From contig SAJS01000030.1 in NCBI GenBank assembly GCA_004017535.1, positions 1-41,303 of the forward strand: 41,303 bases of DNA, written 5' to 3'. A program made the position numbers and the translations under genes. How positions within the stretch are numbered: position 1 is the stretch's first letter; each line of letters starts with the position of its first letter. The notes beneath the pieces were generated by a model, which was given only the letters and a program-made list of their open reading frames with translations, ran no database searches and was not told the origin of the DNA. Positions 230 to 6,356 of the stretch are shown piece after piece. Origin of the DNA: Mesorhizobium sp. (GTDB lineage Bacteria > Pseudomonadota > Alphaproteobacteria > Rhizobiales > Rhizobiaceae).

Positions 230-3733
<3,504 letters not shown>

Positions 3734-3882
3734 CGAGATGTGGTCAAGGCTATAGGCTATGTAGATATGGGCTGGAAGAGCGCCCCAGTTGGCCTTCGCC
3801 TAGCCGTCAATAGAAAGGCAGGAGCGGACCGAGAAATTGCGAACTTACAGGGGCACCCTTATAGTGAGGAGATTCTGGAGAG

Positions 3883-4593
3883 TTGGCGAAAGAGTTGGCG
3901 AGCAGAAATTTGGCAGAGAAAGGAAAAACTTTAGTATCAGTGAGCCTCGCTTTTGCCCCCTCTAACAAGGTGGGCAAAACTATTTCGCTGACCGTCCGTG
4001 GCTCCGAAGGCAAGGCCGGCTGGAATTTTCCGACTATCCGCTATGCTATCCGAAGATTTTACTTAAATTTTGATATTGAAGACTGCGTCCTTCCGGAAGA
4101 AGACTGGAACATAGACGGCATAAATCTCTCAGAAATCGAGATTGAGCACCAGGAATCTGAATCGTCAGGGAAAAATGCTCAACTTGAGAGTGGCTGGTCA
4201 CTTGCAACGTCCGATGCAGGTTCGACAGGTATTTCGTTGAAATCATCGAAGGCAAAGCAGCACGAAGCAAGCCAAGGGCGCCGATACTCCGCGAAATATC
4301 AACCGGTATTGGCTCACGGGGATGCAAAAGCTCCCCAATGGAGCCTTTCGTCAGAAAACCCTCTATCGCCCCTGTTAGGAACGTTGATAAAAGAATCTCA
4401 TTTTTGCCGTGTGGAGCCAACCGGAATTCGACCAAAAGTCTCGGTCTCTTTTACCATCCCCTATGATGCGCTGCTGTTTAAAAAGTCTGATGGGAGATAC
4501 ATTTCCGGAAATAAGTATGGAATCATAAGACTTATCCTTAGGGCGGCTTTGTGTGAAAAGAAGCACAATATTTTTACATCCGAGGTCGATTAA
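3883..4593 (+). CDS. Hypothetical protein, first gene of an AT-rich two-gene island
   Basis: I do not recognise this family. The longest reading, from TTG 3883, gives 236 residues with no signal peptide or membrane segment. It has short hydrophobic beta-like stretches at both ends (TLVSVSLAFAPS near residue 16; VSVSFTIPYDALLF near residue 186) and a polar Ser/Lys-rich middle (about 85-135). This suggests a mostly beta, cytoplasmic protein with a flexible insert. The start is uncertain: GAGGAG at 3866-3871 suits TTG 3883, but GTG 3940 is also in frame. It ends in TAA at 4591-4593, two bases before the likely start of the next gene, so the pair is probably one transcript. Base composition is visibly lower in GC than carB, and host-rare codons such as ATA and AGA appear, consistent with acquisition by transfer. 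Confidence 0.6.
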   Translation: MAKELASRNLAEKGKTLVSVSLAFAPSNKVGKTISLTVRGSEGKAGWNFPTIRYAIRRFYLNFDIEDCVLPEEDWNIDGINLSEIEIEHQESESSGKNAQLESGWSLATSDAGSTGISLKSSKAKQHEASQGRRYSAKYQPVLAHGDAKAPQWSLSSENPLSPLLGTLIKESHFCRVEPTGIRPKVSVSFTIPYDALLFKKSDGRYISGNKYGIIRLILRAALCEKKHNIFTSEVD

Positions 4594-4594
4594 A

Positions 4595-5914
4595 GTGCTA
4601 GAAGAAGTAGACCACTATATTTACATAGTTGAAAGATCTTCAAGCGAGAACTTTGTTGACCTTGTCGTCGCCTCGGGACTCGATCCGGTCTCAGATTTCC
4701 GATACTCAAATTTTGAGGGTATGGATTTCTCGGAATGCAACCTTCAGAGGTTCGACTTCACAGGCAGCGATTTCAGCCAGGCAACTCTAGGGAACGCGGA
4801 CTTCAGAGGCTCCGTCATAACAGACGCGGTGTTTCCGCCGGGCTACAAAGCTGCGATCGGCACCCCTGGAGATCCCCCGCTCAAATCGACCTTAGATAAG
4901 CTGATCGATCTAGCAACTAATCGAAGCCACGCCGCAGAGCGCTCTGAGGCTATCCGCAAAATCCATCGTTTCTTCCCAGGGTCACCTGTTGCTAGACGCT
5001 TTATCAGAGAGAGACGATCAGCAGACAAGTCGAGAACGGTTAGAAACCTTGCTTGGGAGCTGTCCGGGGAAACGGAGCATCCTTCGCTGCCATTATTTGA
5101 GACAATTGTGCGGAGTCGACAGGGTGAGGCGGTTGGTGTTGCTATAAGAGATCTTTTAAAGAAGAAGAATATAGACGATCTAGAGTACGAGTATTTATCA
5201 CTGCATGGATTTACACAGGACATTGAAGTTATTCAGGTACTTGAAAAGAAGGGATTTAAACAGCGAAATTTAACCAGAGCTTTCGCCTTTATAGTACAAA
5301 ATATTTTTAAGAGGAGAATAGACGACCCTTTCAATTATTTCATATCGAGGGCAAATCCGAAAGAGATATCTATGCTATCAGAAATTATTGCTGCGTATCC
5401 GGAAGAAATACTTTCACGAAATGAGGAAATAATAAACGAGTATTTTGATATAGTTTCAAGTGCTGCGGCTCGTTTGTTCGACAACGAAAGCTCATACTTC
5501 TACAATAACTACGACTTGATCAACAAGATAATCCGCGATGGGCTGCCGCTTAGCCTAGAATTCTGCAGAAAATTCTTTGGAAGAGGGCCTGGCCCCGGGA
5601 TAAATCAAGAAATATACAACAAACTTGTCATAACGCCAAATAATTCGAAAACATTTGAAAATATTGTTATAAATTGGGTAGATTTATATCTGGGAAGTTC
5701 GGAAGATGAGGCGGAGTACAGGCACCACAGGACAGCGAGTGAGGTTGTAAGTCTTATCCTAGACTTCCACCCATATGGCGTAATATTGAAAAGCGATAAT
5801 TGGTACTCGCCATCAAGCGATTATTCCGAGAAAGAAATAGAGATCGCCAGGGATTTTTTGGACTTTCACGGCATTCATCGTCGACGTAATAGCAGGGTAG
5901 CTCCCACTGAATAG
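4595..5914 (+). CDS. Pentapeptide-repeat protein with a large helical C-terminal region
   Basis: The 439-residue reading from GTG 4595 carries about ten pentapeptide repeats at residues 33-80, for example SDFRYSNFEGMDFSE and SDFSQATLGNADFRG. Such repeats fold into a right-handed quadrilateral beta helix. The remaining 350 residues are charged and predicted mainly helical, with no signal peptide, membrane segment or catalytic motif I can name. I prefer GTG 4595 because GAGG at 4582-4585 sits nine bases upstream and the stop codon of the preceding gene lies between, a typical coupled arrangement. A reading from GTG 4553 would add 14 residues but has no ribosome-binding site. AT content and AGA/ATA codons are far above those of the flanking genes. 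Function unknown; pentapeptide proteins include gyrase protectors and scaffolds, but nothing here points to either. Confidence 0.7.
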   Translation: MLEEVDHYIYIVERSSSENFVDLVVASGLDPVSDFRYSNFEGMDFSECNLQRFDFTGSDFSQATLGNADFRGSVITDAVFPPGYKAAIGTPGDPPLKSTLDKLIDLATNRSHAAERSEAIRKIHRFFPGSPVARRFIRERRSADKSRTVRNLAWELSGETEHPSLPLFETIVRSRQGEAVGVAIRDLLKKKNIDDLEYEYLSLHGFTQDIEVIQVLEKKGFKQRNLTRAFAFIVQNIFKRRIDDPFNYFISRANPKEISMLSEIIAAYPEEILSRNEEIINEYFDIVSSAAARLFDNESSYFYNNYDLINKIIRDGLPLSLEFCRKFFGRGPGPGINQEIYNKLVITPNNSKTFENIVINWVDLYLGSSEDEAEYRHHRTASEVVSLILDFHPYGVILKSDNWYSPSSDYSEKEIEIARDFLDFHGIHRRRNSRVAPTE

Positions 5915-5938
5915 ATAGCAATCAGTCGCCCAACCGTG

Positions 5939-5978
5939 GTGGCGGTGGCCTCGACAGCCGACTTCAAGCCACCGCCAC
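5939..5978. repeat. 11-bp inverted repeat between convergent genes
   Basis: GTGGCGGTGGC (5939-5949) is the exact reverse complement of GCCACCGCCAC (5968-5978), with an 18-base spacer. It overlaps the 3' end of the RidA-like gene and lies just past the pentapeptide gene. There is no T tract, so it is a 3'-end hairpin rather than a clear intrinsic terminator. Confidence 0.5.
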
Positions 5979-6356
5979 ACACTCGATCTCAATATCGAAC
6001 TCCATCGGCCATGACGCCACCGGCACGAAACTGCGCGCCGGCGGGTTGGTGGCAAAATACTTCGCATAGATCCGGTTGATGGCGTTGTAGAAGCCGGAAT
6101 TGACGGCGTAGATGCGCACCATCACCACCTTCTCCAGCGAAGTGCCGGCCGCCTCCAGGCAGTGCTTCAGCGCCTTCAGCGACGCCTCGGTCTGGGTCTC
6201 GATGTCGCCGCGCACCATCTCGCCGGTCACCATGTCGACCGGCGGCGTCGCCGAGATGAACACGAAGCCGTTGGCCCGCACCGCCGTCGAGCACGGCAGG
6301 CCGAGCGCGCGCACCTTCGCCGACATCACGGGCACTTCGATGACTTCCTTGTCCAT
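5964..6356 (-). CDS. RidA/YjgF/UK114-family protein
   Basis: A 130-residue protein of the RidA superfamily, small trimeric cytoplasmic enzymes. The best known members hydrolyse reactive enamine/imine intermediates from PLP enzymes. Family hallmarks visible here are GFVFISATPPVDMVTGEM near the middle, the TEASLKALKHCLEAAGTSLEKVV helix region, and the C-terminal ARSFVPVASWPMEFDIEIE containing the arginine that in RidA proteins contacts the substrate carboxylate. ATG 6356 is chosen over longer readings because GGGAGG lies just upstream and the upstream residues are unlike the family. The sequence diverges from archetypal RidA, so it may be one of the Rid subgroups with a different substrate. It faces the acquired island tail to tail. 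Confidence 0.85.
   Translation of the reverse strand: MDKEVIEVPVMSAKVRALGLPCSTAVRANGFVFISATPPVDMVTGEMVRGDIETQTEASLKALKHCLEAAGTSLEKVVMVRIYAVNSGFYNAINRIYAKYFATNPPARSFVPVASWPMEFDIEIECVAVA

Follow-up and report, generated by a model that had tools for sequence, protein, structure and literature searches.

Two closely spaced, AT-rich genes of Mesorhizobium sp., here called A and B, lie between carB and a RidA-family gene, at a site where the first gene and the N-terminus of the second stay constant among relatives and the C-terminus of the second is exchanged. The reading that we favour, with somewhat better than even confidence, is that of an accessory two-gene conflict (immune) module at a chromosomal hotspot, with B as the sensor or adaptor and A as its partner. 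An earlier note on this DNA had already suggested an accessory or defence-like module; the exchange of the C-terminus of B, the wide reuse of its N-terminal domain and the hotspot go beyond it.

An AT-rich gene pair between carB and a RidA-family gene

The features of the window (the whole stretch of 41,303 nucleotides that was analysed) are collected in Table 1. The left-hand gene we take to be carB, and the convergent gene on the right is presumably of the RidA family. The gap between them (3734–5963) is 2230 bases long and holds A and B as its sole genes, both on the + strand, in agreement with the earlier description of a pair standing alone.

The same description had the two genes visibly richer in AT than everything around them. 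The GC content of 3883–5914 is 0.449, against an average of 0.627 (sd 0.038) for segments of equal length, the lowest non-overlapping one reaching 0.585. GC3 is 0.47 in A and 0.46 in B as compared with 0.89 in carB. The use of AGA and ATA codons is likewise borne out: AGA and AGG together make up 5 of 237 codons in A and 19 of 440 in B but 2 of 1179 in carB, and ATA occurs four times in A, 19 times in B and never in carB.

Gene A ends with the TAA at 4591–4593 and may start at TTG 3883, 3895 or 3910. For B, a start at GTG 4595 is most likely, because the B proteins of relatives start there and a GAGG lies nine bases upstream; GTG 4553, which comes first in the frame, is a less probable start, since the relatives' B cannot start before the equivalent of about 4595. 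The tight coupling claimed in the earlier note thus stands, with the correction that the GTG lies one base past the TAA of A and not two. The genes may share a common transcript. A consensus scan of the region gave eight promoter-like sites, against 2.9 expected in shuffled sequence, and one of them is a candidate promoter of the pair (Table 1).

Pfam, NCBIfam and PADLOC gave no family for the 66-codon open frame that follows carB. The frame probably does not belong to the module, because the DNA after the carB stop differs, by eye, in the three other loci that carry the pair. No tRNA or convincing flanking repeat was found in the window, which leaves a mobile-element route without support there.

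Table 1. Features of the window and of the loci compared with it
Feature	Position	Strand	Basis or remark
carB (carbamoyl-phosphate synthase large subunit)	230..3733	+	ORF; left flank of insertion hotspot
66-codon open frame	3734–3934	+	upstream of and overlapping gene A
Possible promoter of A/B pair, TTGCGA-17-TATAGT	3837..3865	+	consensus scan; weak
Gene A, 236 aa, no named family	3883..4593	+	ORF, homologues, chained profile links
Gene B, 439-aa pentapeptide-adaptor protein	4595..5914	+	start from relatives and GAGG
B adaptor domain, ~aa 1–84	4595..4846	+	PF00805; recurs as unit in other fusions
B variable C-terminal region, ~350 aa	4868..5911	+	all-helical prediction; no relative found
RidA-family gene, convergent	5964..6356	−	ORF; right flank of hotspot
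Alternative ~150-aa C-terminal domain of B	L007 9469–9918; L010 7737–8192 (−); L011 7964–8410 (−)		alignment
Palindromic element	L007, L155, L157, L160, L163, L168		just after carB stop
Sites without PADLOC match for the scored ORF	L135, L136, L139, L143, L147, L150, L157, L163, L168, L170, L172		

Related pairs keep A and the N-terminus of B and exchange the C-terminus

Homologues of A were found in four of 146 genus genomes (the window's own, G217, G398 and G306), and all four proteins are clearly homologous to each other. The pair is therefore not a locus inherited vertically by all relatives. Nor do its members lie apart: they co-occur, with B directly behind A in all four genomes, after carB and before a RidA-like gene (a partial match in G217 and G306). 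In G306 (L011), three convergent RidA-like matches lie downstream of the pair, as if RidA had been repeated or broken. A profile of A matched three of 199 order genomes, all of them already in the A alignment. A search of genome contigs found one locus with A and no match with B.

The CarB protein of the window is 96–98% identical in amino acids to those of the three other pair-bearing genomes. In the same comparisons identity is 42–55% for A, 55–60% for the first 80 residues of B and 23–29%, with no meaningful alignment, for the rest of B. The other three B proteins share among themselves a compact C-terminal domain of ~150 aa (46–70% identity) in which many residues, including C, H, W and D, are invariant. 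From this contrast in identity across the four loci we conclude that A and the N-terminus of B are constant and that the C-terminus of B has been replaced as a block. The alternative domain had no relative in Pfam, PADLOC, viral contigs or plasmids, and its best match among solved structures had an E-value of 0.59. PADLOC matched neither A nor B of G217, nor B of G306.

The first protein is as unrecognised as the earlier note had found it. Gene A matched nothing in Pfam, NCBIfam or PADLOC (PADLOC-DB 2.0.0 being checked up to E 10), its profile matched no chain among the solved structures and viral contigs gave no match. An AlphaFold model from a two-sequence alignment (the window and the M. 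comanense locus L042) had a pLDDT of 31. A pore-forming reading of A had been entertained for its Ser/Gly-rich middle segment, which bears some resemblance to beta pore-formers, and was dropped for want of a usable model.

The pentapeptide stretch seen earlier in B is confirmed by PF00805 (E 5.9e-9; 35.8 bits against a gathering cut-off of 20.2). It belongs to an adaptor of two helices followed by nine or ten pentapeptides, which AlphaFold models as a helix pair and strands (pLDDT 46–76 by blocks of ten). The further ~350 residues, described in the note as helical, are indeed predicted to be all-helical, at low confidence (mean pLDDT 46 for the whole of B, from the window and L042). This region received no name from PADLOC, NCBIfam or Pfam, matched no viral contig and gave weak matches to solved structures (best E 0.032). 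The whole of B matched no PADLOC-DB 2.0.0 family up to E 10 and only pentapeptide families in Pfam, where no P-loop STAND NTPase domain was found. A search of phages returned one weak partial match (E 1e-3).

The adaptor is reused in front of other domains

Profiles of the first ~85 residues of B matched the same helix-pentapeptide unit in other Alphaproteobacteria, plasmids included. According to Pfam, the adaptor is fused there to FGE-sulfatase (E 1.3e-57), TPR (E 7e-64), PPR (E 2.5e-14) or LRR (E 8.5e-28) domains, and in G988 to an AAA_16-type NTPase (just above the cut-off, with nSTAND_NTPase5 below it) and TPR. Elsewhere it stands before a weak HEAT region (E 7e-4, below the cut-off), and some copies precede unnamed regions. 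G988 was the only Pfam-scanned relative in which an NTPase was seen. The hallmark of the adaptor-based (EAD) systems discussed below, a small terminal adaptor fused to variable domains, is thus present.

In two adaptor-profile searches, the majority of matches covered the repeat alone, in generic pentapeptide proteins. Among 200 phylum genomes (E ≤ 1e-10), four had matches extending into the first ten positions of the adaptor: the window's own and one each from the same genus, order and class. The own genome gave a single adaptor match, both with the whole of B and with the adaptor profiles.

The adaptor profile also matches MfpA and Qnr chains, and there is a weak alignment of Qnr models to the pentapeptide stretch (E 0.04), as might be expected if B were a DNA-mimic pentapeptide protein acting on gyrase. 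We regard such a role as very improbable. The Qnr model scores 13.6 bits against a cut-off of 240 and QnrE 13.9 against 480, the repeat amounts to merely nine or ten pentapeptides at the N-terminus, the adaptor is joined to unrelated domains, and B is coupled to A.

Adaptor genes commonly follow an upstream partner

In 17 of 25 full adaptor matches, an ORF of 200 aa or more on the same strand ends within 60 nt upstream, as compared with 12 of 52 other pentapeptide ORFs (Fisher one-sided p 2e-4, for rows that are not independent and a set that includes the profile-building sequences). Full matches ran from profile position 12 or less to 62 or more, and the 25 were distinct and came from fetched loci; G996 was left out, though its upstream partner is present, as its match ends at 61. 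The control ORFs had at least 150 aa and at least 700 bases upstream, the distance being taken from the first start codon. The remaining eight adaptor matches have no close upstream gene, and some look like ordinary pentapeptide proteins.

When the upstream partners were all compared directly with one another, profile against profile, the test failed for almost every pair, and chained links alone held. With window-type A the direct profile probability was 30% for the G575 partner, 4% for an Agrobacterium plasmid protein and at most 1% for almost all the rest. The G575 partner reaches 96% once the Agrobacterium protein joins the A profile, and the partner on a Beijerinckiaceae plasmid reaches 87% once both of these have joined, in chains where the addition of a weakly linked sequence already assumes part of the link and E-values refer to tiny databases. 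The Beijerinckiaceae partner is in turn linked by blastp to partners in G648 (3.7e-15) and G718 (1e-8). A second group (G445, G475, G701 and G685; best links 4.7e-15 and 1.7e-20) comprises the partners of FGE-type adaptors, with a larger gap between partner and B in G445 and G685. The partners in G120, G768, G988, G1101 and the G636/G996 group had no demonstrated relation to A, and that of G028 is a TIR protein (TIR_2, 2.2e-11). One subclass of upstream proteins has a helical N-terminal stretch that looks HTH-like by eye.

The TIR-type partner suggests that the upstream position is that of an effector, and our guess, a slight preference, is that A rather than B has this role. With the polarity reversed, A would be a sensor or regulator and the C-terminus of B an effector, released or activated through the adaptor. 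We keep this possibility in view of the three nearest relatives, where that end is a compact domain, strongly conserved, whose invariant C, H, W and D bring it closer in appearance to an enzyme or a binding domain than to a sensor made of repeats; the HTH-like stretch upstream points the same way. It is nevertheless doubtful, with odds that overlap those of the main reading, as the C-termini named by Pfam are mostly repeat or lectin-type binding modules and the TIR protein is found upstream.

Genomic settings of the relatives

Plasmid searches gave no match with the window's own or G217's own sequences; two other adaptors matched 8 and 1 records. Five of these nine records were opened, of which two carry a pair and three, from Azospirillum, do not. 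On the latter plasmids (L101–L103), a short pentapeptide gene follows a methanol/ethanol PQQ dehydrogenase, an arrangement of a different kind that was not counted as a pair. A CBASS locus is found two genes away from the pair of the Beijerinckiaceae plasmid, with PADLOC matches to the cyclase (5.9e-128), HORMA (1.6e-76), TRIP13 (3.5e-120) and a TIR effector (1.4e-200), a set that is presumably of type III. The pair of the Agrobacterium plasmid is near repC.

Other settings were read by eye. In L051 (G636), a pair with a TPR-like B sits among pheS/pheT- and infC-like genes, another insertion beside housekeeping genes. The neighbours in L052 (G575), a collagen-like protein and small replication-type genes, look phage-like, which suggests a prophage-borne copy. 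In L054, a neighbouring gene of 1450 aa matched no solved structure.

Small size, close spacing, sporadic occurrence (4/146) and AT-richness would also suit an addiction pair of the toxin–antitoxin type, kept through linkage and with no anti-phage role, as would the two plasmids on which relatives are found fairly near replication genes. This we judge improbable: it would be unusual for an antitoxin to be as large as the second gene and to exchange its whole C-terminus as the first gene stays related; no family match names a toxin or an antitoxin.

An insertion hotspot between carB and RidA

Of 61 genus genomes sampled, 59 gave a match to the 3′ end of carB. We compared 44 loci, namely the four that carry the pair and 40 fetched carB regions. 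In 33 of them the gap ends at a convergent RidA-like match (partial or under 75% identical in eight); the other 11 have no RidA-like gene within about 10 kb or reach the contig end. The bounded gaps are 292 to 5682 bases long, and 30 of the 33, the four pair loci included, have a GC content of 0.55 or less. Their cargo is mostly genome-specific, with few shared families, and the A/B pair is confined to its four loci among the 44. The site thus has fixed core flanks and cargo that changes between genomes. No clean empty site was found among the loci compared, and no paper naming a carB/RidA hotspot was found in the literature among the matches listed.

By eye, similarity between genomes ends near the carB and RidA stop codons, a boundary pattern that would fit exchange of cargo by recombination in the conserved flanks. 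The shortest gap, the 292 bases of L159 (G403), holds a 74-aa fragment related to a 575-aa cargo protein of L139 (G311) and gives the impression that an earlier insert was lost by deletion. In at least six loci (Table 1) the carB stop is followed directly by a palindrome, about CTTCTCCCCGT..ACGGGGAGAAG, which may be a small repeat native to this site.

For the search with PADLOC, one ORF was scored per site, at 20 of the 29 bounded sites without the pair and at the contig-truncated L146; the bounded sites outside this count are L137, L152, L153, L154, L159, L160, L166, L169 and L171. At E ≤ 1e-7, ten of the 21 sites matched, a raw count without a base rate for comparison. The matched cargo comprises AbiU, an OLD/AriA/GajA-type ATPase, a dGTPase-like protein, two DRT (UG13b and Drt6-like), Hydrolase/Hydrolase-TM, bSEFIR, an NsnA-like protein and two SIR2-type proteins. 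Together with the plasmid relative near CBASS, this location supports the accessory or defence-like reading of the earlier note. The scored ORFs of the other 11 sites had no match at this threshold, and their cargo is therefore a source of candidates for unknown defence genes.

The same 11 sites could be taken to mean that A and B are non-defence accessory genes, with symbiosis or surface functions for example, that merely use the hotspot. Pooled scans of 46 of the 50 cargo ORFs of at least 95 aa (best 25 of 44 and of 256 families) gave at least three periplasmic-binding and at least two FAD-binding proteins among the matches listed, which also leans that way. Relatives with CBASS nearby or with a TIR partner argue for defence, as do the sensor-type C-termini, and we think the non-defence alternative unlikely.

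A possible two-gene sensor and effector

In the conflict module that we favour, the helix-pentapeptide N-terminus of B would serve as a constant docking piece. The C-terminal region of B would meet the invader, or a change that the invader causes in the cell, and so decide what is sensed. A, encoded just before B, would be the constant partner, held or released by the adaptor through contact between the two proteins, and most likely the effector. The module may act against phages.

More broadly, we see about an even chance that such pairs are an undescribed immune family, an NLR-like sensor and effector split over two genes and mostly without an NTPase. The partner would be of the A type or a TIR protein, the adaptor would be shuffled onto LRR, TPR, PPR, HEAT, FGE-type or NTPase–TPR sensors, and whole sensors would be replaced at a fixed site. 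If this is right, an adaptor-shuffling class would be added to bacterial immunity through two proteins unnamed in PADLOC, Pfam and NCBIfam. The pair loci would then be a natural experiment, in which related strains with near-identical CarB flanks have exchanged the sensor end of one protein. Further unknown defence genes of the genus can be sought in the carB/RidA gap, a compact hotspot.

Comparison with known systems

With pentapeptide proteins of PF00805 (Qnr, MfpA, HetL, Alr5209), B shares the repeat and presumably the beta-helix fold. The adaptor differs in its very short coil, in the two helices before it and in the other domains fused to it; against solved structures, no best stretch listed spans the helices and the coil together. 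STAND/NLR-like anti-phage sensors (nSTAND, Avs, bNACHT) resemble the family in their variable C-terminal TPR, LRR or HEAT sensors, and G988 joins an AAA_16-type NTPase to TPR, whereas B of the window has no NTPase. Chromosomal defence hotspots between core genes are known to hold varied, small, AT-rich cargo, as here with AbiU, DRT, SIR2, bSEFIR, OLD/AriA-like and NsnA-like proteins; what differs is the site, carB/RidA of Mesorhizobium.

The open literature on pentapeptide repeats (titles and starts of abstracts, subscription papers and preprints aside) held no description of the A/B pair among the matches listed. The pentapeptide passages found in PMC12419801 and PMC10853773 concern other systems, and the word pentapeptide is absent from PMC10907252.

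The nearest likeness is to the adaptor-based (EAD) conflict systems, as set out in the relevant sections of Kaur et al. 2020 (PMC7159879) and 2021 (PMC8195603), the former of which describes the shuffling of FGS, TPR, HEAT, pentapeptide and TIR parts in ternary conflict systems. According to these sections, a small terminal adaptor is joined there to varied sensor or effector domains, including FGS, TPR, HEAT, pentapeptide and TIR, and the variable parts differ between close relatives, as they do here. Unlike the systems in those sections, the adaptor here is itself a helix-pentapeptide domain within a two-gene unit, the gap holds A and B only, with no MoxR/vWA/NTPase core in the window, and the genome has a single adaptor copy instead of homotypic sets.
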